From positions 17,023 through 81,022 of the IMG/VR virus record IMGVR_UViG_3300028920_000061: 64,000 nt of DNA; one strand, given 5' to 3'. The DNA is from a virus. Positions within the stretch are counted from its first letter, which is position 1; every line of letters starts with the position of its first letter. The notes beneath the pieces are model-generated. The model saw only the letters and a list, made by a program, of their open reading frames with translations. It searched no databases and was not told the DNA's origin. The translations under genes and the position numbers were made by a program. Shown in pieces: positions 404-35,900 of this stretch.

Positions 404-2215
404 ATGATGTATGGATTTGTAGAAACGGATATTGCCGATATTTTGTTGGATCGTAACCTCATAGAGCCGTATGAAGAGTTTGCTACGACAAGCGGTGAGA
501 GGGTAGCTATGCTTGAAAAGGAAGATTTTCTTCTTGTAAAACAAATTTTGGTTCGCATGTGTGGAGAAGAAAAAGTTCAATTACTCAGTAGCGATGTCGT
601 TGGAATGTATATACTTCTTTATCCATATTGGATGCATGAGAATTTGTTTGACGCACTCACACCTGGCCCAGTAAAAGAATCTCCATTATATCTTGAGATA
701 CGAACTGAACCATCAACTTCACGATTTAACTGGGATAGTTTCATAATCTCTTTTAAAGAACTTTTGGATATAATTTTAACTGAAAATGAAGAATGTGACG
801 ATATTGATGAGGAAGAATCGACAGAAGAGGATCCAACGGAAGAAGAACAGGCCGTTCCGCCGAATTTCAATCCAGGCTACAGTTTTGCCAAAGATTTTTT
901 TAAATGTTATGATTTAGGATTCAGGGAAATAGAAATTGATAATATGCAATTTCTTATCCATTGGAATAGTAATATTCTGAACAAAACAGTGACGGAAATT
1001 GCTACACGGCTCAAGAAAAATGTAATTGTGCTTTCAGGATCGTGGTCTTCCAGAACTCAAGGTATTGAAAGGCATAAGGACGCGCTTAATCATGTTCTTA
1101 TCATACATACCAATCCGGATCATTTAAAATTTCTCTACCCGCCAATGGAAATGGAACATACGCTATTTGGGTATGAGTTGAGAAAGCTCGCTCAGATTCA
1201 TGGCAACAGTAGTGATATAAATCATGATCCAAACAATCCTCATCCTATCAGTCCTGTTTATTCTGATTTCGATTATGTATATCGAGATTATAAAACGGGT
1301 ATTGTCTGGGCGTTACAGAAGAATATGCAAATATTTTTCATGTTTGATTTGCTTGATGTTTCTGAAGACCTTCGATATATTGTACTTGAAGAATTGATTG
1401 ATCGATTTAATGGTGCACTTTCGTATGAAGAAATGGTAAAAAGAGATATTGAACATTTCAATATGAAATCTCAGTATATCAAGGAAGAGTTTCTGAGTAT
1501 GGCCATTAAAAATTCTAATAGCCTTATAGAAGAATTAAAAAATCAATATCTTTACGCAAAAGAACAATATGCTGAAGCTCTTGACAAGGCTATGGAGTTT
1601 GGAAAAGTAGCCCAGCGTCTTGAAGAAAATCTTGTCAGCCTTGATGAAGACAAGATTAAAAATAAAGAAGCTGAACGTTGTGAAAAAATGTTTGATGACG
1701 TTCTTAACATACCTAAGGTTGCCGCGATCAAATTAAAAGGAAGTGCCGTTCATGTTTACACGAAAAATATATATGTGAAGCATGATAAAGAAGGCACTTG
1801 GCATGATGTTGGTACGTTCAATATCGAAATAGGAATGTATGGGAATACTTATAACCCATCTAAAACTGTCAAGATATTTAACACCAAACATCAAATGCAT
1901 GCATTTAATTCACAAATGCAAGCCCCTCATGTATTCGATGATGGCCATTTATGTCATGGTAATTTAACTGCTGGTATGATTGATGCCTACAAAAGACGAG
2001 ATTTATACCAAATGATTTTGATGATTATCATGTTCCTTGAAAGTGCGAATCTTGACGATGCCGCTGGAGCCTATTTACCACGATGGCCTGAGGTTTCTGA
2101 AGAAATTGCCACACAACCTGAATCAGATGATAATGAAACAACGGTTGTGTTCCAAGAACAGACAGAAGAAGAAAAAGAATTTGATGAAATACTTGATATA
2201 CCAATTCACATATAG
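404..2215 (+). CDS. E2-like (UBC/RWD-fold) domain protein with acidic linker and coiled coil, 603 aa
   Basis: First gene of the ubiquitin-like operon; AAGGAG sits just before the ATG at 404. The N-terminal ~200 residues are unassigned and include a Glu/Asp-rich stretch around 125-150. A predicted coiled coil covers about 365-425. The C-terminal part, about 430-565, looks like an E2/RWD fold: beta strands, then a PHVFDDGHLCHGNL segment, then helices. That segment resembles the HPN...C active-site stretch of E2 enzymes and puts the candidate thioester cysteine at Cys517. By family knowledge such a protein would carry an activated ubiquitin-like protein to a target. The long N-terminal region could choose targets. 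Related bacterial E2-like families occur beside E1, JAB and Ubl genes, as here. Exact Pfam family not determined. Confidence 0.65.
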   Translation: MMYGFVETDIADILLDRNLIEPYEEFATTSGERVAMLEKEDFLLVKQILVRMCGEEKVQLLSSDVVGMYILLYPYWMHENLFDALTPGPVKESPLYLEIRTEPSTSRFNWDSFIISFKELLDIILTENEECDDIDEEESTEEDPTEEEQAVPPNFNPGYSFAKDFFKCYDLGFREIEIDNMQFLIHWNSNILNKTVTEIATRLKKNVIVLSGSWSSRTQGIERHKDALNHVLIIHTNPDHLKFLYPPMEMEHTLFGYELRKLAQIHGNSSDINHDPNNPHPISPVYSDFDYVYRDYKTGIVWALQKNMQIFFMFDLLDVSEDLRYIVLEELIDRFNGALSYEEMVKRDIEHFNMKSQYIKEEFLSMAIKNSNSLIEELKNQYLYAKEQYAEALDKAMEFGKVAQRLEENLVSLDEDKIKNKEAERCEKMFDDVLNIPKVAAIKLKGSAVHVYTKNIYVKHDKEGTWHDVGTFNIEIGMYGNTYNPSKTVKIFNTKHQMHAFNSQMQAPHVFDDGHLCHGNLTAGMIDAYKRRDLYQMILMIIMFLESANLDDAAGAYLPRWPEVSEEIATQPESDDNETTVVFQEQTEEEKEFDEILDIPIHI

Positions 2216-2223
2216 GAGGTATC

Positions 2224-3348
2224 GTGCAAATACGATTTTCTCGTGGTACTGGTGTCACTATTGACACTGTTCCGACTCAACTTCTTACATGGGCACAGCG
2301 ATGGTGGGTTGCGGATGATGGCGATTTCTGTCTTCGGTCAGCAATGCCTACAGAGCCTATCAGTAAAACTTTGACAGAAAATGGGTTCAACAATTTCTAT
2401 TATGATGATATCACTAATGTGGTAGCCATCGGTCAAAACATCACTGAAGAACATGTCAATACAGCAAGAGCGGTTGCTGAGGGCGGTGAAGCCGCGCCGG
2501 CTACCCCAAGACCCGTCGCTGCTTTAGAAACTGATATGGGTGAAGTTGAGCCCCTCCAAAGAGAAGAGGAGCCAGTAGAAGGCGTTGATTACGAAATTGA
2601 ACCGGAAGAAGAAGATGACCCCGATGGTGAGGATGAAGACGATCTCGAACGTCCATTCACTCCACATCTTGATCCGGTTGTTGACATCAATAACGATGAA
2701 ATTCTCAAACGCCTTCCACCAATGCTTCGTATGGAAGAAGCAAGCGCAATCAAACTGTATTGTGACAAGCTTCGTGAATACGAACGTGTCTGGAGTCAGG
2801 CGATCACAATGAAGAGAATAATTAACGAGATGATGACCAAAATCGATGAAAACGTCCTTCTGAAAACGGTACGTGACGATATCTCGTATCTTCAGGAAAA
2901 ATGCGATGATGTTGAATCAGTACGGTTTGGAACCGGTGTCAGAGAGTATAATCTGGTTATCACAACCAAAGAAATCATTACAGACGACCAGGAAAAGTAC
3001 GGTCGGCGCAGGCTTGGTGCAATGAGGATCACAATTGATTTGAGATACCTGTATGCTCAAACACCTCCTGGATCGAACTATACCAAAGCGATTGAAATAC
3101 AAAATCTCGACCGGCACCCAAGATTTGGTGGTACTTATTGGGATTGTGGCCATGTGCATCATGAAGATGAAGGTTCTACAATGAGCGCCTGCTTCGGTGG
3201 ATATTACCAACACATATTCGAAGCGTTCGTATCACGGAACCTTCCGATGCTGTTCGATACAATCATACGTTTTATCAAGCGTCCATACGAAATGGATGAA
3301 TGGGGTTGTAAGGTACGCCTCTTTCCGGAGGTAACCAGTGAATCCTGA
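2224..3348 (+). CDS. Second E2-like domain protein, 374 aa
   Basis: GTG start at 2224 preceded by AGGAGG, nine bases after the previous stop. Layout: a small N-terminal domain (1-75), an Ala/Pro then very acidic linker (~85-150), a helical segment (~165-225), and a C-terminal E2-like domain (~235-374). The last holds an HPRFGG segment, then GHVHHEDEG, then SACFGGY, with Cys323 as candidate active cysteine. The layout (acidic linker, helix, C-terminal E2-like fold with H-P...G..C.G) parallels the 603-aa neighbour, so the two are probably diverged paralogues or act as a pair. One could be inactive or act as a ligase-like scaffold. The stop overlaps the JAB gene start, indicating translational coupling. 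Confidence 0.6.
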   Translation: MQIRFSRGTGVTIDTVPTQLLTWAQRWWVADDGDFCLRSAMPTEPISKTLTENGFNNFYYDDITNVVAIGQNITEEHVNTARAVAEGGEAAPATPRPVAALETDMGEVEPLQREEEPVEGVDYEIEPEEEDDPDGEDEDDLERPFTPHLDPVVDINNDEILKRLPPMLRMEEASAIKLYCDKLREYERVWSQAITMKRIINEMMTKIDENVLLKTVRDDISYLQEKCDDVESVRFGTGVREYNLVITTKEIITDDQEKYGRRRLGAMRITIDLRYLYAQTPPGSNYTKAIEIQNLDRHPRFGGTYWDCGHVHHEDEGSTMSACFGGYYQHIFEAFVSRNLPMLFDTIIRFIKRPYEMDEWGCKVRLFPEVTSES

Positions 3349-4315
3349 TTCAAGAAAATGCTCATGGTCGTTTCTTTCCGAAAGGACGGAAACGGCCCCT
3401 AATATTCAATTTACACCAAAGGCCTTGAAATGGATCAAGGCGATGGTTGAAGAACATAGTGAAGAAGTTGGCTTTCTTGGTATTGTTAGAGAGGTTGATT
3501 CTTCATATGTCATTGATGAAATATTCTATCCGAAACATTGCCTTGCTACTTCATCAACATGTGAAATAGCGCCCGAAGGTGAAGTAGAATTGGCGCAATA
3601 TCTGATTGATAATAACAGGGTAGAAGATGTTGCTCGAGTCAGATTTTGGGGTCATTCTCATCATACGATGGGAACAACGCCGTCTGGCCAGGATGACGAT
3701 CAGGCATTACAAAAAATGAATAATAACGGTGCGTATTTCGTTCGCGCCATATGCAACAAAAAAGGCGAAATGTCAGTTTCATTCTTTGATCATGAACGAC
3801 AACTCAAATTTGAGAATGTCAAATGGTCGATATGTGAAAACTACGACGAAATTCTCGCCAATGTTATTTGCGCCACAAATATGGAATCAAATAGTAAGGG
3901 GAAAGTTCAAGCCATACGTGCTGCTATCTCTGCACAAATTGATTACAAAGATGACGAATACAAAAAGATTACCGAAAAAGTGAAAGAGCTCAAAAAGAAA
4001 AATCTCCCGGCATCCGAAACAAGGGGGTTGGCTCGGCAACCATACCAGAGAGGGGTTATACATAGCCCCGGACATTATCCAAACGACATCCTTCCCGGGT
4101 TCCAGCAAGATATGTTCGATGATGATTGGCCCCCGTATGGTCCTGAATTCTATCGGAACAACGCTGGGCAGATGCCTTATCAACGCCGGCAAAGTAATTT
4201 TCCAAAAGTGAATGGTGCAAGAAAAAACAAAAGAAAAAAAAATCGAAACGGGGCTCTTTTGTCCGATAAGGAAATAGATTCGGTTGTTTCAGAGGCATGG
4301 GAGGGTGGATTATGA
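3338..4315 (+). CDS. JAB/JAMM metalloprotease (deubiquitinase-like), 325 aa
   Basis: GTG start at 3338 after CCGGAGG; overlaps the preceding gene by 11 bases. The JAMM signature is complete: H106-S-H108, seven residues, S116, two residues, D119 (HSHHTMGTTPSGQD), with an upstream acidic EEVGFLGIV segment supplying the expected glutamate. This is a zinc-dependent isopeptidase/processing-protease fold. The C-terminal ~120 residues are Pro/Gly/Asn-rich and then very basic (KNKRKKNRN), and may bind nucleic acid or a partner. In this operon it probably trims the two-domain Ubl precursor, removes the modifier from targets, or both. The stop overlaps the E1 gene (ATGA). Confidence 0.85.
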   Translation: MNPDSRKCSWSFLSERTETAPNIQFTPKALKWIKAMVEEHSEEVGFLGIVREVDSSYVIDEIFYPKHCLATSSTCEIAPEGEVELAQYLIDNNRVEDVARVRFWGHSHHTMGTTPSGQDDDQALQKMNNNGAYFVRAICNKKGEMSVSFFDHERQLKFENVKWSICENYDEILANVICATNMESNSKGKVQAIRAAISAQIDYKDDEYKKITEKVKELKKKNLPASETRGLARQPYQRGVIHSPGHYPNDILPGFQQDMFDDDWPPYGPEFYRNNAGQMPYQRRQSNFPKVNGARKNKRKKNRNGALLSDKEIDSVVSEAWEGGL

Positions 4316-5070
4316 TCGACTATCTCAGGCAGCTTGATCTGCTAGACCCGAAACAGATCGGCAATCGTTCTGTCAGCCTGATTGGGGCAGGAGCTACGGG
4401 TTCGCACATTGCATGGTATCTCGCTCAGCTCGGGTGGGGTGCTTCAAATCAAGGTCAAGGCATTCTCAAGGTATTTGATGACGACACAATTGAAGGTCAC
4501 AATCTGGCTAACCAGATATACTGGCCGGAGCATGTCGGCAAGCTGAAAGTCGAAGCTCTCAAAGATATGATAATCAAGAAGTTTGGGTTTGAAATAGAAA
4601 CCCATCCTGAAAAGGTTACTGACCAGAGAAACGACGTTGCAGCAAAATATGTATTTCTTCTTACGGACACCATGAGCAGCCGTGAAGAAATATTTGAGAA
4701 ATGTCTTCATTTCCAATTCGCAACAGACTTGGTGATTGAAACCCGGATGGGTTTGCGAGACGGTCGGGTCTACGCATTCAATCCGAACGATCCTAACCAT
4801 ATTGAGGAATGGAAAAAAACGCTCTATAAGGATGAGGAGGCGTCTGCGTCACTCTGTGGTGCAAGCGCATCCATTATATCCACTGTAACTTTCCTGTCAT
4901 CGCTTGCGGTCTGCCGGCTTGTGCAGCATTTCAATTGCAACTATGGGAGCGACACTCTCCGTGAGGAGGGTAAACCAATGAGGATGTGGAACGAAGTCCA
5001 CTTCTCCCTGTACCCCGAAGCAATGATGTTGCGCCAATTCGGTGAGGCTAAAGAGCCAATAATTTTCTGA
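4312..5070 (+). CDS. ThiF/MoeB/E1-like ubiquitin-activating enzyme, 252 aa
   Basis: The start at 4312 is preferred over an in-frame ATG at 4297 because GGGAGGG precedes it and it overlaps the JAB stop as ATGA. A Rossmann nucleotide-binding loop, GAGATG (25-30), is followed by the DDDTIEGHNLANQ segment (56-68) typical of the ATP/Mg site of ThiF-fold enzymes. A cysteine at 182 in SLCGASAS is the best candidate for the thioester cysteine. No CxxC zinc pairs are seen. Expected reaction: adenylation of the C-terminus of the Ubl encoded next, then handover to the E2-like proteins. The single-domain size resembles bacterial ThiF-family E1s and not eukaryotic E1s. Confidence 0.85.
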   Translation: MIDYLRQLDLLDPKQIGNRSVSLIGAGATGSHIAWYLAQLGWGASNQGQGILKVFDDDTIEGHNLANQIYWPEHVGKLKVEALKDMIIKKFGFEIETHPEKVTDQRNDVAAKYVFLLTDTMSSREEIFEKCLHFQFATDLVIETRMGLRDGRVYAFNPNDPNHIEEWKKTLYKDEEASASLCGASASIISTVTFLSSLAVCRLVQHFNCNYGSDTLREEGKPMRMWNEVHFSLYPEAMMLRQFGEAKEPIIF

Positions 5071-5086
5071 CGGAAGGTTTTATCAG

Positions 5087-5554
5087 ATGGTTATCGTTCA
5101 GCTCGTTAAGGTCGGATCTGAGGTCCGTTCTTTCGACATTTCAGACAATCCCACTCTCGGCAACCTGCTTCGCATAGCTGATGAGTCTTTCACTCCCAAT
5201 ACCATTACTATCAATGCCCAGAACGTTGTCAGTGAAAACACCACCCTCCGTGATGGAGACCGTGTTTTTATTGGTAACAAGGTCAAGGGAAATACTCCCT
5301 ATATTGTTGAGTTTATCCGACTCGGGCAGGCTGAGGTCGTTCGCATATCCACTGAGGGTAGTGCAACCATTGGTGACTGCATCAATATGATGAGTGACAC
5401 CAATCGGAACTATTTTATTGGTGGTGATGGAAACGATGTTTTTCAATACCAAATAAGCGGCGTTACCAAACAGTCCAGTGATATTGTTCCTTTGCCATCC
5501 CAGGAGGGCGGAACAGTTCGTGTTATCTGCGCGACGAAGGTAAAAGGCAATTAA
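5087..5554 (+). CDS. Tandem ubiquitin-like (beta-grasp) modifier precursor, 155 aa
   Basis: ATG at 5087, 16 bases after the E1 stop. Two beta-grasp-like units can be read: residues 1-69 and 70-155. Each begins with alternating beta strands (VIVQLVKVGSEVRSFDIS; YIVEFIRLGQAEVVRIS), then a short helix, then a strand. Both end with the same five residues, KVKGN, the second at the very C-terminus. MoaD/ThiS and ubiquitin end in GG; here it is GN. The identical ends suggest a poly-ubiquitin-like precursor cut after each unit, presumably by the JAB protease, though this is inference. Bacterial multi-ubiquitin proteins in E1-E2-JAB operons are the nearest known parallel. Confidence 0.75.
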   Translation: MVIVQLVKVGSEVRSFDISDNPTLGNLLRIADESFTPNTITINAQNVVSENTTLRDGDRVFIGNKVKGNTPYIVEFIRLGQAEVVRISTEGSATIGDCINMMSDTNRNYFIGGDGNDVFQYQISGVTKQSSDIVPLPSQEGGTVRVICATKVKGN

Positions 5555-5577: not shown

Positions 5578-5605
5578 AACCGGCGATGAGAAATCATCGC
5601 CGGTT
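5578..5605 (+). terminator. Strong stem-loop after the ubiquitin-like operon
   Basis: An 11-bp perfect stem (AACCGGCGATG / CATCGCCGGTT) with a 6-nt loop lies 24 bases after the Ubl stop. No U-tract follows, so it may be a processing or stabilising structure and not an intrinsic terminator. Confidence 0.5.
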
Positions 5606-7139: not shown

Positions 7140-7543
7140 GGGCCCGCACTTGGGTTTCGATGTGGGTACTGAATCATATGTAGCATGCCGAGGACGACGG
7201 TTGGCCTCGTTAATCATCCGTCAAAACAACAACTGCCAAAAACGACGGTTGTGCAATGGGCGCTGAGTTCGCAATCCAGTTCGCTGAGATTTGCAACCTG
7301 GCGACCGCACCAGCGCTGGTCTAAAGACCGGCAAACATCACTGATTGACGCCGATATGGCAGTGGTGTAAAACATCGGCTGGACGGAGAGAGGGTCGAAC
7401 TCTCTGTTGAGATAAGACTAGAGTTCCAGTATAGCTGCCGTGTTCAGTAGACGGAACTGACAATAGAAATGGACCGGATAAGCATGTAGAAGCGTGTGTG
7501 GATGTATTTACAGACATCGGTTCGATTCCGATCGGGTCCACCA
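7140..7543 (+). ncRNA. ssrA: Transfer-messenger RNA (tmRNA)
   Basis: One-piece tmRNA of 404 nt with CCA encoded at 7541-7543. The 5' end GGGCCCG pairs with CGGGTCC at the 3' end over seven positions, including the G3-U70 wobble that marks alanine acceptors. The 5' domain carries the tmRNA-specific GGTTTCGATGTGGG. The 3' domain has TAAGCATGTAG, very close to the E. coli tmRNA, and a proper T arm (ATCGG TTCGATT CCGAT). After the 5' domain, GCATGCCGAGG..CGGTTGGCCTCG matches the conserved pseudoknot region. It would rescue stalled ribosomes together with host SmpB and tag peptides for proteolysis. The ORFs seen across it are shadows. An intrinsic terminator follows five bases later. Confidence 0.95.
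7235..7324 (+). other. Proposed tmRNA tag reading frame (29 codons)
   Basis: The resume codon is proposed as GCC at 7235, aligned with the E. coli context in which an alanine codon is followed by AAACGACG (here GCC AAA AAC GAC). The frame then runs 29 codons to TAA at 7322-7324. The tag begins AKNDGC and ends APALV, a hydrophobic end like other ssrA degrons. It is long compared with the 10-residue E. coli tag, though long tags are known. The resume site is inferred by alignment only. Confidence 0.55.
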
Positions 7544-7588: not shown

Positions 7589-8008
7589 ATGCCACCATGC
7601 TCAACATGTAACGGCGCATGCTGTTACCTATTTATGTTACGATGGTCGAAAAGGGATCTTCTGTTAAGACTGTCCGGAAAAGGTATGTTTCGAAATCTTA
7701 AAGTTTCAACTTTTGAAATAATCAAACAGCTAACCTTTCTTCGCGATGCAACCAGTCAATTTGAAAAGAATCGGGATCCATCGGTAAGATTTTTCACCTG
7801 TCTCGCCTTCTCTAATAACAGATGTTCTATTTATAAATACAGAATGGCCTTTTGTGAACCATACGATTGCAAAGGAACCAAACAAATAGCTCATACTATG
7901 TCACTTGATGGAAAACCGCCGCTCCCAATAATGAATCAGGAGGTGGATATTGACAGACAAACAGATTATAGCCTGCAAGTTGCCCGGCGACCTGTTCTCA
8001 TCTCCTGA
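7589..8008 (+). CDS. CxxCxxCC-type putative metal-binding protein, 139 aa
   Basis: ATG 7589 follows GAAAGGAG. The N-terminus has CSTCNGACC, the C-x2-C-x2-CC signature of the YkgJ/UPF0153-like family, which is proposed to hold zinc or an iron-sulfur cluster. The second half adds the expected cysteines: FFTC, CSIYKYR and FCEPYDC, matching the family pattern C..(aromatic)..C-IY..RP..C. The molecular role of this family is poorly known. The stop lies inside the next gene, which starts 59 bases earlier in another frame. Confidence 0.7.
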   Translation: MPPCSTCNGACCYLFMLRWSKRDLLLRLSGKGMFRNLKVSTFEIIKQLTFLRDATSQFEKNRDPSVRFFTCLAFSNNRCSIYKYRMAFCEPYDCKGTKQIAHTMSLDGKPPLPIMNQEVDIDRQTDYSLQVARRPVLIS

Positions 8009-8954
8009 AAACATGGAGAAGGAATTCACCGAGCTTGCCCAGCGTTGGCATCCGGACAAGATGGGCGGCAACAGCATTGTTATGGCTCATGTGAATTCTC
8101 TTCATGCGCAGGGGAGGGAGATGGTTGCATCCGGCAATTGGAAATCATCCAATAAACGATTTTTCACCCTCTCTAATGGCAGAACTGTTCGTATAAGCTT
8201 TCTGTCTGAAAATGATTTTGAACTCGGCAAATGGTACCTCTGCGAATCGGTTTGTGTCTATGCTTTCAATACTGGCTCTGCAATAAATTTCAAACTTCCG
8301 AAATTCAGATTTCGCAATACCAGTATGACAGATGAATTTACCGCATATTTGCCAAGAATTATCGACCAGTATGAAGTAAACAACGGGAAAAAGCTCATTG
8401 TCATTAATCGTGAGAAAGACCTTGTTCTTCTACGCGATTTGTTGGCATGGTTTGGAAATGCAGTACCGCCAAAGCATGTAGCGTGGATTCTCAGCTCCCT
8501 TTACAACCTTTGTGCTTTCTTCAAATATAATGGAATTGTTCACCATTCCATTAATCTGAATACATATTTTATTTCCCCAGCAAAACATAAAGGGGTCTTG
8601 CTTGGCGGGTGGTGGTATCACAAAGGGTTCGACCGTCGAATGAAAGTAGTACCAAAATCAACATACGACGTGATGACTCTAGACACGAAAAAGTCCAAAA
8701 AAGCCACGCCCATTACCGATCTCGAATGTGTAAAACTTATAGGTCGTCAGCTTCTTGGAAGTGCCAGTGGGAGCACGCTATATTCCAATCCTGATATACC
8801 GAAGCCAATGATACAATTCCTGAGAACCATCTCGTCTGAGAATGCCTACAAGGAATATGAGGCCTGGACGAATGTTCTACAAGAAAGTTTCGGCCCAAAA
8901 AAATTCATTGAGATGGATTGCAACGCGGACGAAATTTACAAGAAGCCATCCTAA
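7950..8954 (+). CDS. J-domain protein with kinase-like C-terminal region, 334 aa
   Basis: TTG start at 7950 with CAGGAGG in front. Residues 1-60 form a J domain with the HPD tripeptide in QRWHPDKMGG, so it should stimulate an Hsp70/DnaK ATPase. Residues ~130-300 look like the C-lobe of a protein kinase fold: helices, then YNGIVHHSINLNTYFI in the place of the HRD catalytic loop, followed by GVLLGGWWY where DFG would lie. The catalytic Asp is replaced (HHS for HRD) and no DFG is seen, which points to a pseudokinase. The alternative is an unrelated helical domain. It may recruit host or phage chaperones to a client. Confidence 0.6.
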   Translation: MTDKQIIACKLPGDLFSSPENMEKEFTELAQRWHPDKMGGNSIVMAHVNSLHAQGREMVASGNWKSSNKRFFTLSNGRTVRISFLSENDFELGKWYLCESVCVYAFNTGSAINFKLPKFRFRNTSMTDEFTAYLPRIIDQYEVNNGKKLIVINREKDLVLLRDLLAWFGNAVPPKHVAWILSSLYNLCAFFKYNGIVHHSINLNTYFISPAKHKGVLLGGWWYHKGFDRRMKVVPKSTYDVMTLDTKKSKKATPITDLECVKLIGRQLLGSASGSTLYSNPDIPKPMIQFLRTISSENAYKEYEAWTNVLQESFGPKKFIEMDCNADEIYKKPS

Positions 8955-9338: not shown

Positions 9339-10265
9339 ATGGGAAGTGGAAGAATGACAGCCGATGACTGGGGGGCATACTCGACCACCCATTTCGTAGA
9401 TCGTACAGTAGACAAGATCTACACCTCATCAACCATCGATTCCCGGTTCGATCCCAAGAAAATCACCATGAGAGAGTCGTGCGACTCTGATGACAATCCC
9501 GAATCAACAGCTGCTATCATCGCCCTGGATGTCACCGGTTCGATGTCTTATGTTCTGGAGGCAACTGCAAAGAACCTTGGCGTCCTGGTTCAGGAAGTCT
9601 ACGACCGGAAACCCATCACCGACCCCCACATGATGTTCATGGGAATCGGAGATGCGGAGATGAGAGACGAATATCCACTTCAGGTGACTCAGTTCGAAGC
9701 CGACATCCGGATTGCCGAACAACTCAAAAACATCTATTTCGAACGTCATGGCGGCGGCAACTCTTATGAGTCATATGCGCTGGCGTGGTATTTCGCGGCT
9801 CTGAGGACCAAAATTGACTGCTTCGAGAAGAGGGGCAAGAAAGGCACCCTGTTCACCATCGGTGATGAGGGTCCCACGCCATACCTGAAAGCAGACGACA
9901 TCGAGTACACTCTCGGGGAACGTCCTCAGAAGGACTTCACCGACAAAGAGCTGCTCGAAATGGTCTCACGGCAGTACGACGTGTTCCATCTCATCGTTGA
10001 AGAAGGCGACTTCGCCAGCCGGCACGGCGGGGAAGTGATCAAGAAGTGGACGGAGCTTCTTGGCCAGAGAGCTATCCCGATATCCGACTGTACCAAAGTT
10101 GCCGAAGTGATCGTGTCCGTTCTTCAAGCCAATGCGGGTGAAGACAAGGATAAAATCATTTCCAGTTGGGATGGCGACACATCAGTCGTTGTTTCAAAAG
10201 CAATCAACGGTCTCACTAAATCCGATGGGGTGGCCTCCTCATCGGATGGCGTTGTGGAACTATAG
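9339..10265 (+). CDS. von Willebrand factor A (vWA) domain protein, 308 aa
   Basis: ATG 9339 preceded by AGAGGAA. The MIDAS metal-binding motif is visible as DVTGSMS around residues 64-70 within a hydrophobic beta strand (AAIIALDVTGSM). A Thr/Ser-containing GGGNSYES segment and a second strand ending GTLFTIGDEGP follow. This is the vWA fold, used for Mg-dependent protein-protein contacts. Its base composition is more GC-rich than that of its neighbours. In bacteria vWA proteins often work beside AAA+ ATPases, but none is next to it here. The direct partner is unknown. An intrinsic terminator follows. Confidence 0.75.
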   Translation: MGSGRMTADDWGAYSTTHFVDRTVDKIYTSSTIDSRFDPKKITMRESCDSDDNPESTAAIIALDVTGSMSYVLEATAKNLGVLVQEVYDRKPITDPHMMFMGIGDAEMRDEYPLQVTQFEADIRIAEQLKNIYFERHGGGNSYESYALAWYFAALRTKIDCFEKRGKKGTLFTIGDEGPTPYLKADDIEYTLGERPQKDFTDKELLEMVSRQYDVFHLIVEEGDFASRHGGEVIKKWTELLGQRAIPISDCTKVAEVIVSVLQANAGEDKDKIISSWDGDTSVVVSKAINGLTKSDGVASSSDGVVEL

Positions 10266-10697: not shown

Positions 10698-11873
10698 ATG
10701 AGAATCAAAGCAATAATTGGAAGTGGCATGGGTGATGAAGGTAAGGGTCGCATGACCGAATACTTTTCCGACAGCAAATCAATTGTTGTACGATTCAACG
10801 GAGGGGCACAAGCTGGTCATACTGTCGTACTTTCTGACTGGGCGCGTCATGTATTTCATCATTTTGGAAGTGGGAGCCTGCATGGTGCTCAAACATATCT
10901 GAGCAAATTTTTTATTGCCAATCCGATGTTCTTCTGTCGAGAGCGTAGAGAACTTCTGGCGAATTTTCAATGTAATCCTGATGTTTATATCAGTCCGTTT
11001 TGTTTTGTTACGACACCATGGGATATGATCATTAATGATCTAACAAATCAGAAAAACCAACATGGTACCTGTGGATTTGGCATTAACGAGACTGTTGAAC
11101 GATGTCAGAAGATGACATTAAATGTCAGTACGCTTCAGGCGGACTACTTTGACGACCTTCTCATGCACATCGTCAATGACTGGGTTCCGGTAAGAATTGA
11201 AGAGCTTGGGCTTGAGCCCGACGCAACATACCGCAAATGGCTTTCAAGCGAGAAGATGATAGACAATTTCAAAGATGATGTCAAATCATTTCTCAATTGG
11301 GTAACGATAGGAGACCCAAACTTTGACTTTGCCGAACAAGTCATTTTTGAAGGCGCTCAGGGACTCATGCTCGATCAGAATCATGAAAATTTCCCATATG
11401 TTACCAGGTCGAATACGGGAACCGGAAATGTCCGCGAACTGATTGAGGATTTTCATCTTCACGATGAACTGGAAGTGACATACGTTACCCGGTCATATGC
11501 GACCAGGCATGGGGCCGGACCTTTACTTCATGAGGATAAGACTCTCCAATATGGCGACCCAACAAACGTTCCAAACAGGTTTCAGGGAAGTCTACGATAT
11601 GGCCTTCTCGATATAAATCAAATTGTTCATGAAATCAATCAAGATATGGTAAATCTAAACGGCCTGGAGTACAATCCAAGTATTGCAGTCACCTGCCTGG
11701 ACCAAAATCCCGGATATTGTATCTGGGATGGTAAGGAAGAGCGCTTGTCACACAGTGAGCTATGCAAGCACGCTCTTGCGGACAATCTCCAGTTTAGCAA
11801 GGCGTATGGGTCCATTGGCCCCAGAACAACTGATCACATGAAAGTGTGGGAAAGGAAAGGGGTGCCAGTATAA
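10698..11873 (+). CDS. Adenylosuccinate synthetase family enzyme (PurA or PurZ), 391 aa
   Basis: AAAGGAAG before ATG 10698. The P-loop-like GMGDEGKG (residues 10-17) includes the catalytic Asp13. NGGAQAGHT holds His41, with Gln in place of the usual Asn38. Further on are EGAQGLMLDQ, TRSNTGTGN, TRSYATRHGAGP (the family GxGP region) and TCLDQ for guanine recognition. The PurA reaction joins aspartate to IMP using GTP. Phage PurZ uses dGMP to make the precursor of 2-aminoadenine (Z-DNA). I cannot separate the two by eye. The Q38 change and the phage setting make PurZ worth testing. Confidence 0.85.
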   Translation: MRIKAIIGSGMGDEGKGRMTEYFSDSKSIVVRFNGGAQAGHTVVLSDWARHVFHHFGSGSLHGAQTYLSKFFIANPMFFCRERRELLANFQCNPDVYISPFCFVTTPWDMIINDLTNQKNQHGTCGFGINETVERCQKMTLNVSTLQADYFDDLLMHIVNDWVPVRIEELGLEPDATYRKWLSSEKMIDNFKDDVKSFLNWVTIGDPNFDFAEQVIFEGAQGLMLDQNHENFPYVTRSNTGTGNVRELIEDFHLHDELEVTYVTRSYATRHGAGPLLHEDKTLQYGDPTNVPNRFQGSLRYGLLDINQIVHEINQDMVNLNGLEYNPSIAVTCLDQNPGYCIWDGKEERLSHSELCKHALADNLQFSKAYGSIGPRTTDHMKVWERKGVPV

Positions 11874-29400: not shown

Positions 29401-29905
29401 CGGGTTTTGAAGTATATGGTAAGCTTAAATATTCCTGATCGATTTTGTATCCGGTTTCATAAATTACAGGAGCAAAATAAAAAGAATGATACCTGCTGAT
29501 TGTCCCATCTGCGTCAGTAACCAGCTCAGATTGATTAATGAATTCGATAATATCAAAAGCAGCGTGCCTTTGTCCTACTTTGGAATACTGTTTGGTAGAA
29601 AGTTCATGCTCATATCCAAGCTTTTCATCTGCTATCAGAAGTATAATACCGTATACATCTGTAAGCTGCGTCACATTGGCGTATTCACTAATGAATATGT
29701 CATGGTTGCTGAAAAATGAGACGTATCCGACGTGCGGATTGAATGATGTATTGTTATTGAACTTGTGAAGAAAGTCGGCAAACCAGACATACCTCTCCGC
29801 AACAAACCCCTTGGCTGCCCCGGAGGCAAGAAAGCGTGACGACTCTGAAAAATCATTTATCAAAGCGTGGTGATACGATTCTTTATCTGGATTTATGCAT
29901 TTCAT
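26441..29905 (-). CDS. Large tail-associated protein, 1154 aa
   Basis: Tyr/Asp/Ser-rich, beta-dominated protein without membrane segments or obvious enzymatic residues. The N-terminal part has alternating aromatic strands (FVAERYVWFADFLHKF..). The start overlaps the stop of the 2441-aa spike gene (ATGA-type coupling), so the two are probably made together. Likely a baseplate-attached fibre or adhesin. No family recognised. Confidence 0.55.
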   Translation of the reverse strand: MKCINPDKESYHHALINDFSESSRFLASGAAKGFVAERYVWFADFLHKFNNNTSFNPHVGYVSFFSNHDIFISEYANVTQLTDVYGIILLIADEKLGYEHELSTKQYSKVGQRHAAFDIIEFINQSELVTDADGTISRYHSFYFAPVIYETGYKIDQEYLSLPYTSKPGYDLYIWAHRSFSPLTLKDYSFSVVMGTYNADCTSAAQALVANADIAHTTRLLDYKVVPTDINWGFCDGGIVEFIHYPYDFKSEEPWTCHPYIGLPLFYNQVYDGDDKVDGQFQEATIALLTTRLLPQLSQKNVIEKQKLAHSGPVTPEGKSFFHAPGLSYEEDDQSQIAFHISRNNVYDEGGGNYVIGQEMYDSSNFIRGIDVQTERNRRYSSIVTTEPYMKVRPLANGQAIDYKIVGADGGDISFSWPKAWTACVKIRAPRAYIRELDRELDREEYNTDILHVLHLNGPEMKMEGEDTEAYDTFKGASLNDYFKREEYALDDLLGGLVGDTGVKRFSFYTNSAASPEVADIESYYTDQKIRICGAGHYSKKNGMGSASVYAKLYCTNYVPGGPDTVSDSLITMPQWIHQIDNYELFRPMLRIPGIHGYVKIIRRDPYIEPVLLSDGREEIMYEVEFPFCAGSYQVRVAGQSEFKKTQIFKKSSYINAGSWALDSNNHYDSYNARYAPEGDDAFCRIDYFKGMDSPTEDTIESDPESAGGHLTQMVSRPANRLIYPAHLCYYRVDETSIFISMTKPRQTYPTFGTFDIDIDDSLFSHNPADMKMVWNVDNRVWKYGDNKFSSYINREYPSYVLELDTAELSSTTGRKQDEYAGIPDIKRWIYSKVSAFCHTAYWPPATSNEDYTDGTRYKPTEESLSDVIIEVWDTAYPVNGSTRAMWRPFSMTLYDNKKYTAKTLVSGLHAAVSKVLVHNNLYFVILEKYDSSAIDYGLTDEEAAEVDEKSNLVMYDSETGRMYHVAYVEQDTVYPNNTRLKVYFTTPSASYNITDGSGIPANIYDWEGPVSLHKPYSKLNKKTDFEFKSCETQFSSSAVDTLFKTRHMDFGSRGDDSDFDRYVDENSKIYIRIRPLKARTYPVSYGNFGTGSDTMQYIDSRVTGVVNDYTNMPWWNPITPPSGDWDDGLDWSKIDIVEYIRRFGLSYFSLLSR

Positions 29906-32900
29906 AGGTTGAAAATTGGCCCTCCGCCAAATTTGACATTCTTAATCGGATTCTTTGCCCCGGAGATACAAAGGGTCACAGCCTCATTCAAAAGAAGCTG
30001 AAGCTTATTCTCCTGTTCATTAAAATAGAGTGAATACCTGTCATCATCAAGCATTCTACCAAGAATGAATGGGGATTCGCTGTTTATCTTTGTTGCAATA
30101 ATTGTCATTGATTCCGCATCATAATACGCAGTAAATTCTTCCACTACTTTTCTAACCTTATCGGTTTTCAAAAGAATAGAAGGTTCAGCCTTTAATTGAA
30201 TTGCGATTTTCTGTTCACGTATGAACTCTTCAAGCTCATCCTGATTGTATTGAAATCTTGCATACAAATCTTCATACACTGTATCATTTTTCAGACAAAT
30301 AAGACGCTTATTTTCTCGATCAAGGTCAATTCGTATTTGATCAACAGACCGCACATCAGATGATTCAAGATCAAAAATGTGAATAGCCAGCTCATAAGGG
30401 CCTATATCAATAAATCCACCCCTGAATTGCCTATCGCTTCCTTCTATATCAGTCGTCATTGAATACAAGGTAACGGCAGAATCGTTTCCAGTATTGGCAA
30501 CAATACTTGTAAGAAGTGGCTTGAGGTTTGATTGAGTCATAACTGTTGATGGAGCTGAAAAACTTTCAATTTCTGTGAACTCAGGATCTTCGTTTTCTTG
30601 AGGATTAACAACTCTCGAAGACGTTATACCTATATCAAAGTCACCAGATCCGATATTGTATGTTAAACCATTGTACATGTAATCATCAAGAGAGCCTGTG
30701 CATGTTTTAAATGTGAGAGTGCTTGACTCGTCACAAATGAATATCGAATTGTAATTTTTGTGACCTGTCAGTGTGGTTTTGGCCAAATACATCGTTGATA
30801 AAGAACCGTCATTAAAATATAAAACTATCGAATTCACGATTTCGATATTGGTATCAGAATTGACAAGTGTATCATTGTTTACCTGAACGATGCAATTGAT
30901 TAAAATGATTTTTGACGTAAGTGCAGAGTGCGATTCGTTCAGACTGTAATTTCCACTTGAGTCAACACTGTAAATTTTTATGTTTTCAAAAGTCAAACTG
31001 CCTTGTTTGCTGTCATCATCGAAAAGGCCATCTGAATTATACCGTATTGATGCCGGGCCCTCAGCCGCCTCGTTTGGATCAGTCATCACCTTAACGGTTC
31101 TATCTTCACGATTGTCAAATTCGAACATTCCTTCAAATGTCTTATTGGCTTCTACATATATGAGTATGTTATCAATTGTGTTTGTTGCCAGATATGCATT
31201 AAGAGTTGTTATAGTGTGAAACTGATAAATGGTTGAAACGCTGTCATAAAAATTATCTCTTAAATAAAGAGTTTGCGTTGGAAATTCGTCAGTTGCTATT
31301 CCAAATTGATTTGATATACTGACGGGGCCTATTTGCAGGGACCCTGTTCCTATTAACTGACTTTGTTCTATGGCACCCCTATCCCATTGCTCCTCTTCAC
31401 GATCTACACCGCGGCAGTCTTCAAAGAAATAATATGGTGAGGTTTCTCGGAGATCATAAGCTGAATTGATTGCGACAGAATCTACATCCAAGTCAGGGGT
31501 GTAATCTTCAGTTAATCGGTCAATGAATTTTATATATTGCTTGTTGATATTTCCATTATTAGTTCCGGCAGTCACGTCTCGGCTGATGTTGTACAACAAA
31601 AGGAATTTGCCGGTATTCTCAGGATGATCTTCTATGAAATCTCCAGCAACATTGTCTTGACATATGTTATTGTACATCTGCACAATAGTAGAAAGTCCAG
31701 AACTTTTAATTTGATAAATTCCATAATAGCAATTGACAATTGTGTTATTCATCACCCAAACATAATTGGTATAACCGCCTTCCATTGAGATGCCGCCTAT
31801 GCATCTGCTTAGAATATTATTGACGATTACATAGATTATACCATTGACCATTCCATCGTCGCAATCACAATGAATGGCTTTGGCGCCACATTCATGAATT
31901 ATGTTTGAATCAATTAAGAACCCTTTTGAATATTGTATGTATATACCGCCACCGTTTGCATTACTATTTTCAAGAATAATTCCAGAAATTTCAATATACC
32001 TTGCATTATTAACATTAATGGCATAGCCTAAATCGTTCAAAAGAACTTCGGATCCAGAGCTGGGGTTCCCTTTGTGCCTGTGAGGCACATTGCAGTGTTT
32101 TGTAATATCAATTGGTGAGAATATGCGTATGAAATAATCAACATCGCATGTGTACCCGGAAATCGTACATGCACTTGAAACAAGACCGACGCTGTCATCT
32201 GAAACAACAATATTGACCTGTACTTCAGCAGAAGTTAAATCACTTCCTACAATTGTTTCAATCCCACCGGAAAATGCACTTGGAAGATTACTGAATTTTC
32301 TCTTTATAATAGTAATCAGATGTTCACCAGAAACAGCATCATCACCATTTTCATCAGATATATACCAGTTTAAACTGTCAATTTTTTCTCCAAGATATCC
32401 AATAACAGTGGAGACGCCCGTTATAACCACATCACCTGATGCAATTTTATCGTTTGTTTGAGGGGTCCCAAACGTAATGATGGAACCGATTACGGTGGCC
32501 TTTGCGGCAGATGCTGTGTGATAATTCTGTGTAATATCTCCAACAGAAAAGAACACTTTTTTTGCTTGATACTCAAGGGCACCCATGTCCCAGAATCTGC
32601 CACGGGCATTTCCAACGGCGTCTGTATCAAAAGGATATGTGGTATCACCGTTAAGCTGTGTGCCAACCCCTCGAGGAGAGTCTTTTGTTAGATTATAATT
32701 TCTGTTTGGAACATCTTCAAATTCCGCTGTAGTTGAATCAAGATCCCCAGTTCCGCCACCGGTACTCGCATCTTCAGCCATACAGTATCTCGTATTGGGA
32801 ACGCCACCATAACATCCTGAAGGGCAATTCTGAACAATATTATTTGTCAAGTTGCACAATACTGTAGAGTATATCCCCACATCGCAATCGTCTATGGTGT

Positions 32901-35900
32901 TGCTGTAGATGTAATCAGTAAGTGATGCTAATATTCCTTTATTTAAAAAATCATAAATTATGTTATTTACGATTTTTGATTTCAAATCTGACGAAACACA
33001 TTCAATTCCATGTTTACCATTGAAAATGATATTGTTTATGATCTTACAATTTGATGCGTTTACATATATACAAGAAAGGGTGCTTGCCCCACTTACTGAT
33101 ATTAAAATTCCATCTATTTCTGTGTAATCGCATGATATGTCTACCATTGGTTGTAAAGTGGTAGAACTGTAAATCATTCTTGCATACGAATCGTATACAC
33201 CATCGTGTCTTTGGGTAGAATAGCATTCATCAGTTTCATATGGGGCATACAATCTTAGATAATTATCTTCATCAGTTGTGAATCCTGAAATGACTGCAGG
33301 TTCAATATTATTTGACCCTTTGTCCATAGCAATGCTTATTTGAAGCTTTGCTTTAACAAGGTCGGTCATTGGATTGGTAGCGTCTCCGTATGGAGAAAAT
33401 TGAGCAATACTTTCGGAATCAGTTGAATCATAAACTTTTTCAACATAATTGAATGTTCGCTTGATTGATATAACCAAAACGCCCGATGCCGCTTCCGGAA
33501 TTTCACCAACATCGTTCACAACGGTCCATGATGTATCTGAAATTTTATTTTTTAGATAAGCTGTTTTAGTGCTTGGCGCAATATCATATAGAAGAGTATC
33601 TCCAATAATAACACCGCTATCGGAAATATCCGTTGAAAATGTAGCCACATTTCCTGAAATGGTTACTGTCAACCCGGTTAAAGACAGTACTTTATTGTCT
33701 GTTGATGTACCACAAGAAAAAGTTTGAACCGTCGTAGTCAAATCTTGACAGTCAGCACCAATACTGTATTCCGGTATCAATTCCGAATCTATGTCCCGAG
33801 TGGGGTTGTTACTGTCAATCGCCCCCTGATTGAGTGCTTCAAAATCATTTCTAGCCAAATGGTAATCATCGGTACCGGCAAATGATAAAGTGACACTTGT
33901 AATTGTGCCTGTTGCATCTTCACTAATACAATTTGAAATTGAGCCTCCACCGGAGTAACCTGTTGCAGACCCTTGAGCAATATCGTTATTCAATGCGGCT
34001 GTCGCCTGGGTTGTATAGGCTGTCCCATTGTCAGAAACAATAGTATTATTATTGCTGTAACCATTCTTAATATCGAGCCCAACGGTGGTGGTATCGTAAA
34101 TAATATTTGCTTTTGCATATATCACATATGCATTCGTGTCCTGCGTTACTCCATCGGTGCTATCCTTGATGATACATCGCTTTACAGATGATCCGCCGGC
34201 AGACGAAAAAGCGACACCAGTACTGCTGGCTGCTTTGATTTGCAAACCATCAATATGTATGTATTGATTTGAAACTGCAATTGCAACTGCAGCTGAAGTT
34301 TCGATTCGATATCTCGTATCAAGCCATGCGCCTGAATGCCTTTGCCTTGTATTGCATTGGGTTAGAGTATCAAAAGGGGCTTCAATGGTCATGAAATATG
34401 TGGAGCTTGTCGTCCACCCCGAAACAGTGACTGTTGATGTATCTGCTGAAGCATCGTCCTGGTAGCACTCGATTTTGATATCAGCAGTATTCGTAACAAG
34501 ATCTTTGGACCCAAACTCAGCAGAGATATCGGTGCTCAAAGCTGTATGAAGGGCGTTCGAGACGCGTTTGATATCTGTAACAGTGTTAGAAAAATTTGCG
34601 ACAGTTCCACCGGTATTGTCTACAACCCTCCAGATACTCGCTGAGCCCTTTTCTGCCAGATAAACGTCCCCTCCAGGAGTTGTTACTTTATCACCTATGC
34701 CAATTCCGCTATCGAGAGATGCGCTGAATGTAGCAATACCGCCCACAACGTCAATGTTTACTGAGCCAGATTGAAGATCTGATGAATTATGACCGACTGA
34801 AAAATATGCAGCATTCTTTGTTGGTAACGAGTACTGATCAGCCCCAATGCTCCACCCATAAGGCTCATTATAGTATGTCTCGGGCCTTGTTTCACTGTCA
34901 ATATCAATATATGCCTGAAAGAAATGATCAACATTTGCGGCATAACCTGAACTCATCAAAATCTGTTGAGCAAAAGGTATATGAAAATCCCGAACATCTC
35001 TGAATGTAACCGTTTTTAAGGCGTCGTTATTCCGATCGAGCTTCAGCGAAAGTCCGGTAGAGTCAGAAGTCCAGTTTGATTCTGAGGTTATGTAATCTGA
35101 TGTTGGCTCATCACCCTCCAAATCAATTCCGTTTTGAAGCATCAAATTGTTAAGAAGTCGTATCTGATTAATTGCGCTGGAATCTACTGATCCTCTTGCA
35201 AGATATTTGATACCGTATCCGCAATTGTAAACAGTATTGTTGAAAATGGCAAATAGATAACCACCACTATCTGTGTTGTAATTATCAATCAATATTCCAG
35301 CATTCGTATTGTCATACACCACATTACTGAGAACAGCAATTTTTGAATCCTGTCCAGTTTCAGAAATAACTTGAATCCCTGCTTCTTTAACTATGTTGGC
35401 TTCAACTCTGGAAATTGCGTTCAGCAAATAGATATCATCATCGAGTTGCATTCCAATAATTTTGAAATATCCACCTGTTGAACTTGCTTGTATTCCACTC
35501 ACATACATCAAATCATTATCCCACACCCCTGCATGACGACGGTTCGAGTTTGATTTAGAGTCAGAACCTGTCGGGGTATAAATAGTAATACCTCTTGTTT
35601 CATCGCATGTGTATCCAGTAAAAGAAGCGTAAGAATCCGATGTCGCAGTTTTTTCAACACACACAAGTTCAATCTGAATATCGCTACTAACAAGATTGGT
35701 CGGTGCACCGCTTAATATGAAAGCTGCCAAACTATTAAATTGAGGAAGGATAGATGTAATAGCTGACGGGCCTGCGACATCTGCAGGTGCCAATCCGTTT
35801 GTTGCTGTAGTCCTCCATTGGGTGGAACTTATTTTTTCAGTGAGTATGCAGCTTCCAGACGCATGAGTCAGAACGTAGCCTGCCGATACCAGTGGGTTCA

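Follow-up and report, generated by a model that had tools for sequence, protein, structure and literature searches.

A 64,000-nucleotide stretch of virus DNA (here called the window; it is the final 64 kb of the 81-kb IMG/VR record IMGVR_UViG_3300028920_000061) carries, within positions 404 to 5554, five co-directional plus-strand genes that encode two E2-like proteins (E2a and E2b), a JAB/JAMM metalloprotease, a stand-alone ThiF/E1 adenylating enzyme, and a tandem ubiquitin-like modifier (Ubl). We interpret this operon as a phage-autonomous module for ubiquitin-like conjugation and deconjugation, with DNA replication and repair proteins as its likeliest targets, and we give this interpretation a probability of about 0.7. 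The gene content, the folds or fold-level homology, the catalytic residues, the gene order, and the tail motif of the modifier are directly supported. A preliminary description of the window, made from the sequence alone, had reported five coupled genes by which the phage makes an E1, a pair of E2-like proteins, a JAB, and a tandem Ubl of its own; all five open reading frames (ORFs) were found on the plus strand where they had been placed, and the set was confirmed in what is a tailed-phage genome.

Neighboring genes of the operon either overlap or are separated by 8 to 17 nucleotides, and a hairpin with a perfect 12-bp stem and a GAAA loop (5578..5605, plus strand) lies directly 3′ of the stop codon of the last gene. 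This stretch has a stability of −35.2 kcal/mol (z = −6.45) that was equaled by none of 200 shuffled sequences, and it is the probable end of the transcription unit. Because the genes overlap or nearly touch and the hairpin follows the last stop codon, the five genes look like a single transcription unit; a scan for sigma-70 promoters gave no excess over shuffled sequences. Single-protein searches with Pfam, NCBIfam, PHROGs, and PADLOC returned a clear score for the E1 only. The gene set is far beyond chance, since the E1 matches the ThiF family at E = 6e-18, a further 11 distinct phage contigs, ranging up to 208 kb, have the five genes in identical order, and the active sites are invariant despite an overall identity of about 22-40% for the E2s, JAB, and Ubl.

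The E1 (4312..5070, plus strand) comprises 252 residues; its ORF opens at 4297, which would give 257 residues, but the start at 4312 is favored because of an ATGA overlap and is the one used for residue numbering. The protein matched the Pfam ThiF family (6.4e-18), and its closest solved relatives were yeast Uba1 (E = 2e-5) and UBA6 (8e-5). The best NCBIfam match was PRTRC_ThiF (3.4e-14), with the ThiF and MoeB models matched as well and none over its cut-off, and the PADLOC "E1-E2" models also matched (best 2.8e-14). The sequence contains GAGATGS, HNLANQ, Lys79, Asp119, Arg145, and a candidate catalytic Cys182 (codon 4855-4857), and across 16 diverse E1 members the nucleotide-loop glycines, Lys79, Asp119, Arg145, and Cys182 are invariant. 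Wherever the motif could be read, members of this subfamily have HNLANQ where MoeB/E1 enzymes have NxxRQ, an Arg-to-Asn exchange, whereas the PRTRC E1s retain the arginine.

E2a (404..2215, plus strand; 603 residues) consists of an N-terminal alpha/beta region, long helices at residues 341-434, and a C-terminal UBC/E2-like domain at about residues 415-567, with the active-site motif APHVFDDGHLCHGN containing His509 and Cys517 (codon 1952-1954). E2b (2224..3348, plus strand; 374 residues) has an acidic, low-complexity N-terminal half and an E2-like C-terminal half that is a paralog of the E2a domain and bears CGHV...ACFG, with His310 and Cys323 (codon 3190-3192). The two C-terminal domains are homologous as judged by profile-profile comparison of independent alignments with hhalign (probability 98.1, E = 8.8e-14), and iterated searches with hidden Markov models also united them. 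Cys517 and Cys323 fall together in one column when the E2 family is aligned, where cysteine is present in 60 of the 63 domain rows with a residue at that position and is mostly preceded by PH or GH. The resulting PH-x(6-7)-C pattern resembles the HPN...C active site of classical E2s. An AlphaFold model of E2a showed a helix, strands, an active-site loop, and two helices, with a predicted local distance difference test score (pLDDT) of about 80-94 in the C-terminal region; its best Foldseek match in the PDB was UbcH7 (probability 0.80, E = 0.064), and the first three matches in BFVD were unannotated phage proteins (probability 0.93-1.00). A sequence-profile search of the PDB with E2a gave nothing significant. 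The E2-like assignment thus appears strong in homology and motif and moderate in fold taken alone.

The JAB protein (3338..4315, plus strand; 325 residues) has a complete E..HxH..S..D site composed of Glu43, His106-Ser-His108, Ser116, and Asp119, with the HSH-x7-S-x2-D motif encoded at about 3653-3694. The two histidines, the serine, and the aspartate are invariant in 19 of 19 homologs, that of a cultured phage included, and Glu43 is kept in more than 90%. The window protein matched Pfam Prok-JAB below threshold, and the family profile matched RPN11, BRCC36, and CSN5 (E = 1e-4 to 1e-2), which are deubiquitinases or deneddylases. We predict from these conserved residues that the JAB protein is the Ubl-processing and deconjugating enzyme.

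The modifier (5087..5554, plus strand; 155 residues) was modeled by AlphaFold as two beta-grasp units with a pLDDT of 87.2. Foldseek searches of the PDB gave linear di-ubiquitin, FAT10, and ISG15 as its best matches (E = 7e-7 to 1e-4, probability 1.00); the low template modeling scores (0.3-0.4) would be explained by a different arrangement of the two units. A PDB sequence-profile search yielded nothing significant, with SAMP2 as a weak match (E = 0.12). Both units, encoded at 5087-5293 and 5294-5551 on the plus strand, end in VKGN. Among 13 tandem homologs with about 28-36% identity to the window protein, Lys-Gly is invariant at both unit ends and the following Asn is at least 90% conserved; single-Ubl relatives have the KGN tail mostly at the C-terminal end, and Melainabacteria encode two or three near-identical tandem units, each ending in RGN. 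Two such polyubiquitin-like genes of Melainabacteria, with three units (L043:2338-3216) and two units (L042:2634-3281), have RPVRGN at the end of each unit. Because every unit ends in KG(N), each appears to have retained a processing site of its own, in the manner of a polyubiquitin-like precursor that would be cut by JAB. Units 1 and 2 of the window modifier are weakly alike (16 of 83 positions; 5 of 200 shuffled sequences scored equally high), and therefore two different modifiers may result.

Most assignments of the preliminary description stood up to these comparisons. The ThiF/E1 with GAGATG and a candidate Cys182 is conserved in both features across its subfamily, the JAB motif HSH-x7-S-x2-D is real, the candidate cysteines Cys517 and Cys323 share one alignment column, and the C-terminal region of the 374-residue protein is E2-like by its homology to E2a. 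Two others held with corrections. The 603-residue protein had been called E2-like, which motif, topology, and the UbcH7 match bear out for its C-terminal 200 residues or so, the only part that is an E2 domain; the modifier had been called two-unit beta-grasp, and its double fold was recovered by the model and by Foldseek, with the likeness between its units proving weak.

The genome is clearly that of a tailed phage. Baseplate_J was found in this genome and in four of nine related contigs, and Terminase_6N in three related contigs; these matches and the IMG/VR record are the basis of its viral character. The Gp23 capsid and tail-sheath families had no match in the related contigs (Gp23 matched in no control either), nor did phrog_2. 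Each of the 11 distinct loci whose flank is long enough has genes for an SNF2 helicase, a small helix-turn-helix protein, and a VRR-NUC nuclease upstream of the operon. In this genome the same strand carries, still further upstream, genes for a primase-helicase of CHC2/MCM-like type and for an exonuclease/PD-(D/E)XK protein; the primase-helicase (L007:1853-5380) combines a CHC2 zinc finger and an MCM-type P-loop in a single 1175-residue protein, an unusual primase-helicase arrangement. The operon shares its strand with these replication genes, and the structural block, including beta-helix and baseplate genes, is on the opposite (minus) strand. The operon is a fixed part of a conserved, syntenic replication/repair block, and its earlier placement in an "accessory region" was incorrect.

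In a tree of E1 sequences, the 12 phage-type sequences with tandem Ubl formed one clade (support 100/99), one of its type being carried by a metagenome-assembled contig labeled Euryarchaeota (L037) that is probably a mis-binned phage piece. Separate clades contained Melainabacteria and candidate phyla, single-Ubl phages with Allochromatium, and Clostridia; the PRTRC E1s fell outside in a clade of their own (100/100). The Melainabacteria/Obscuribacterales loci (L040, L043, L051, and others) resemble the phage operon in having a Ubl that mostly ends in [KR]GN, two E2-like proteins of the same family, a JAB protein, and an E1 with HN[LI]ANQ. They differ in that the Ubl is single or made of near-identical repeats, the gene order is different, and a large gene follows the E1 (L040:8750-11143, L043:8883-11348, and L051:8745-11327). 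The large gene of L040 encodes a ClpB/ClpC-like AAA ATPase (AAA_2, 6e-65), a hint that in cells the proteins tagged by such systems might be passed on to an unfoldase. We also considered a one-to-one pairing of two E2s with two Ubl units as a rule and rejected it, as two E2s are also present in those Melainabacteria whose Ubl is single.

Cultured phages contain parts of the system. Xanthomonas phage PhiXhv-12 has an E1 beside an 892-residue protein carrying a phage-type E2 domain (probability 90%, E = 1.4e-6). A 140-residue candidate Ubl ending in KASGG is encoded further upstream, and no JAB was found beside the E1. The 892-residue protein, annotated as hypothetical (L008:3322-6000), contains IHPHM...HGSLCLG in the E2-like domain and a Cys-rich, potentially metal-binding tail. 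Flavobacterium phage FpV4 has an E1 beside a homologous JAB (probability 99.8%); a candidate E2 in FpV4 was rejected as a motif resemblance only (hhalign probability 0.2%). Both E1s share 26-28% identity with the window E1, and their neighborhoods include toprim and uracil-DNA glycosylase genes in FpV4 and ligase and topoisomerase genes in PhiXhv-12; ParB and Pol III beta genes are near the version on PRTRC plasmids. The window E2a had no match in any cultured phage, and the open-license literature searched contained no description of the phage operon. The earlier view of the set as unusual in phages was thus correct only by half: other phage contigs carry diverged sets, and a few cultured phages pair an E1 with an E2 or a JAB.

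The operon is a phage-borne variant of the prokaryotic E1-E2-JAB-Ubl systems, BilABCD-like in its proposed working and not a member of that family. It has the general components of such systems, namely a ThiF/E1 domain, an E2 with a catalytic Cys (at moderate strength), a complete JAB site, and a beta-grasp Ubl, along with a conserved C-terminal Gly that becomes terminal in the phage only after trimming, as KG precedes N. BilABCD is a compact operon whose genes encode an ISG15-like Ubl with two units, an E2, an E1, and a JAB/JAMM enzyme by which the Ubl is trimmed (PMC11354881). This layout is the closest match to the phage operon, whose Ubl model also matches ISG15. BilD has inactive and active adenylation domains and a Cys domain of approximately 80 residues (PMC11354881), for which the phage E1, with one ThiF domain in 252 residues, has no room. 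The Bil system has a single E2 with a CEHH motif, whereas the phage has two paralogous E2s with PH...C and no CEHH. BilABCD is described as a bacterial defense gene set, and this sets it apart from the phage operon with its replication-module genes.

By E1 profile, the nearest system is PRTRC/Iyer type 6d (Prok-E2_D, Prok_Ub, JAB, and stand-alone E1), which likewise resides on mobile elements with ParB or replication genes nearby. The E2 active sites are alike (APL-x-N-x(3-4)-G-x2-C-x-G in PRTRC and APHV-x3-G-x2-CHGN in the phage), but the phage E1 scored 52.8 bits against PRTRC_ThiF (TIGR03736), below the cut-off of 144.75, and is not a member. Prok-E2_D lacks the classical His and has a downstream His, whereas the phage E2s have a His at the HPN position and gave no Prok-E2_D match in 26 members; a genome search for Prok-E2_D found one locus in 185 genomes. 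The PRTRC system has one E2 and a single Ubl in place of two E2s and a tandem Ubl, and its alpha-helical partner protein has no counterpart in the phage operon. The JAB of type 6d has an N-terminal domain with conserved Arg and Trp. Profile comparisons of PRTRC_B, _C, and _A as candidate homologs of E2, Ubl, and JAB, made with few PRTRC sequences, were not significant (for the phage E2 and PRTRC_B, an hhalign probability of about 1% with a shallow 4-sequence PRTRC_B profile). Iyer type 6e has one to three Ubl repeats per protein, an E1-JAB fusion, and an inactive E2/RWD domain (PMC1779556); the phage operon shares the Ubl repeats, E1, and JAB but encodes E1 and JAB separately and keeps the catalytic Cys in both E2-like proteins. 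CBASS type II (Cap2/Cap3) has an E2-E1 fusion with a CD-NTase, whereas the phage makes its E1 and E2s as individual proteins, and no nucleotidyltransferase turned up among the genes of the operon. The ThiF-ThiS and MoeB-MoaD pairs have an NxxRQ E1-like protein and no E2, in contrast to the HNLANQ and two E2-like genes of the phage, whose E1 passed no cut-off of those models.

In the mechanism that we propose, JAB would trim the precursor after each Lys-Gly (KG|N) to free a C-terminal Gly, and perhaps split the two units as in polyubiquitin. The E1 would then adenylate the freed Gly with ATP and take the modifier as a thioester on Cys182, from which it would pass to Cys517 of E2a, Cys323 of E2b, or both. 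Because no E3 (ligase) gene is visible in the operon, the E2s would place the modifier directly on lysines of target proteins, and its removal by JAB would make the modification a reversible switch. Phage or host DNA replication and repair proteins would be the likeliest targets, switched reversibly during genome replication, given the fixed place of the operon in the early replication/repair block. A more specific version, in which phages control their own replication and repair with two distinct modifiers cut from the polyubiquitin-like precursor and two dedicated E2s, and the SNF2 and VRR-NUC proteins act as substrates or readers, is speculative, has a fairly low probability, and draws on the analogy of Rad5/HLTF and FAN1 to the helicase and the nuclease.

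Several points weigh against a conjugation module acting on replication. The R-to-N exchange means that the ATP chemistry of the E1 may differ, which is the main biochemical doubt about this enzyme, and the modifier ends in GN rather than GG, hence its activity depends on trimming. Pfam E2 models matched none of 26 E2-family members, the UbcH7 fold match is modest, and the structural model covers E2a, with the E2-like identity of E2b following from homology. The reaction steps are read from conserved residues, and the targets, the most tentative part of the proposal, and the link to replication are drawn from gene position only.

The R-to-N exchange, found in all subfamily members in which the motif was read, would also suit a degenerate system whose E1 has lost full activity and whose proteins now form a noncovalent binding complex. 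We regard such decay as very improbable, since the exchange is common to dozens of diverged members that keep Cys182, Lys79, Asp119, and the E2 cysteines, which decay would not preserve. The matches of the E1 to ThiF and MoeB models, and the presence of SAMP2, the one modifier with a beta-grasp fold in the weak PDB sequence matches of the Ubl, could instead point to sulfur transfer for cofactor or nucleic-acid modification, as in ThiF-ThiS and MoeB-MoaD; SAMP2 itself has a dual function. A sulfur carrier is nevertheless highly improbable here, as sulfur transfer gives no role to a pair of E2-like proteins with a conserved Cys, no rhodanese or thiolase partner is present in the operon, and both tandem units keep the KG tail.

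Other readings accept conjugation and place its purpose elsewhere; the purposes suggested in the preliminary description, the disarming of defenses or the protection of virion parts, are one option among these. Host E1-E2-JAB systems defend against phages (PMC10097602; reviewed in PMC12948488), and the phage modifier and JAB might disturb such defenses (CBASS Cap2/Cap3 or Bil) or tag immune proteins to silence them; a JAB can strip host-made conjugates, and the PADLOC matches of the E1 agree with this idea. It is unlikely, however, because the set occupies the core replication block of every related contig with enough flank rather than a variable anti-defense region, two catalytic E2s would be superfluous for a decoy, and there is no known host defense partner. 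Conjugation to virion proteins, excluding superinfecting phages or controlling the phage's own assembly, would fit the resemblance in layout to BilABCD, which tags the central tail fiber, but we find it quite improbable given that the operon accompanies replication genes, with the structural block on the other strand, and that its 252-residue E1 is not BilD-like.

The record also contains features unrelated to the operon. Upstream of the window, L007:15620-15961 encodes a protein with an RNA recognition motif (RRM_1, 8e-18). Downstream of the operon, a transfer-messenger RNA (7140-7543, plus strand; Rfam RF00023, 141 bits) with the unusually long tag AKNDGCAMGAEFAIQFAEICNLATAPALV points to a bacterial host. 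A protein with a weak J-domain-like N terminus and a kinase-like region (7950-8954, plus strand; phrog_3043, 2.5e-6) and another with a VWA-like DxTGS motif (9339-10265, plus strand; phrog_2971) are encoded next to a thioredoxin-like gene. The gene at 10698-11873 (plus strand) encodes an adenylosuccinate synthetase-like protein; since its PHROG match is named 2-amino-type adenylosuccinate synthetase (8e-54), a 2-aminoadenine (Z) genome is possible. A 2441-residue protein with right-handed beta-helix repeats (29902-37227, minus strand; 8e-17) is probably a tail or receptor-binding protein.

Bacterial ubiquitin-like conjugation has so far been known mainly as an antiphage weapon. If our interpretation is correct, a phage family would own a conserved, apparently complete pathway tied to its replication genes, and phages would thus be turning this chemistry to their own use. 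The operon also provides a small system that lacks an E3 and has an ISG15-like double modifier, and it adds to the E2 superfamily a family matched by no model in the Pfam copy used. The E1/JAB and E1/E2 pairs of cultured phages make the question directly testable.

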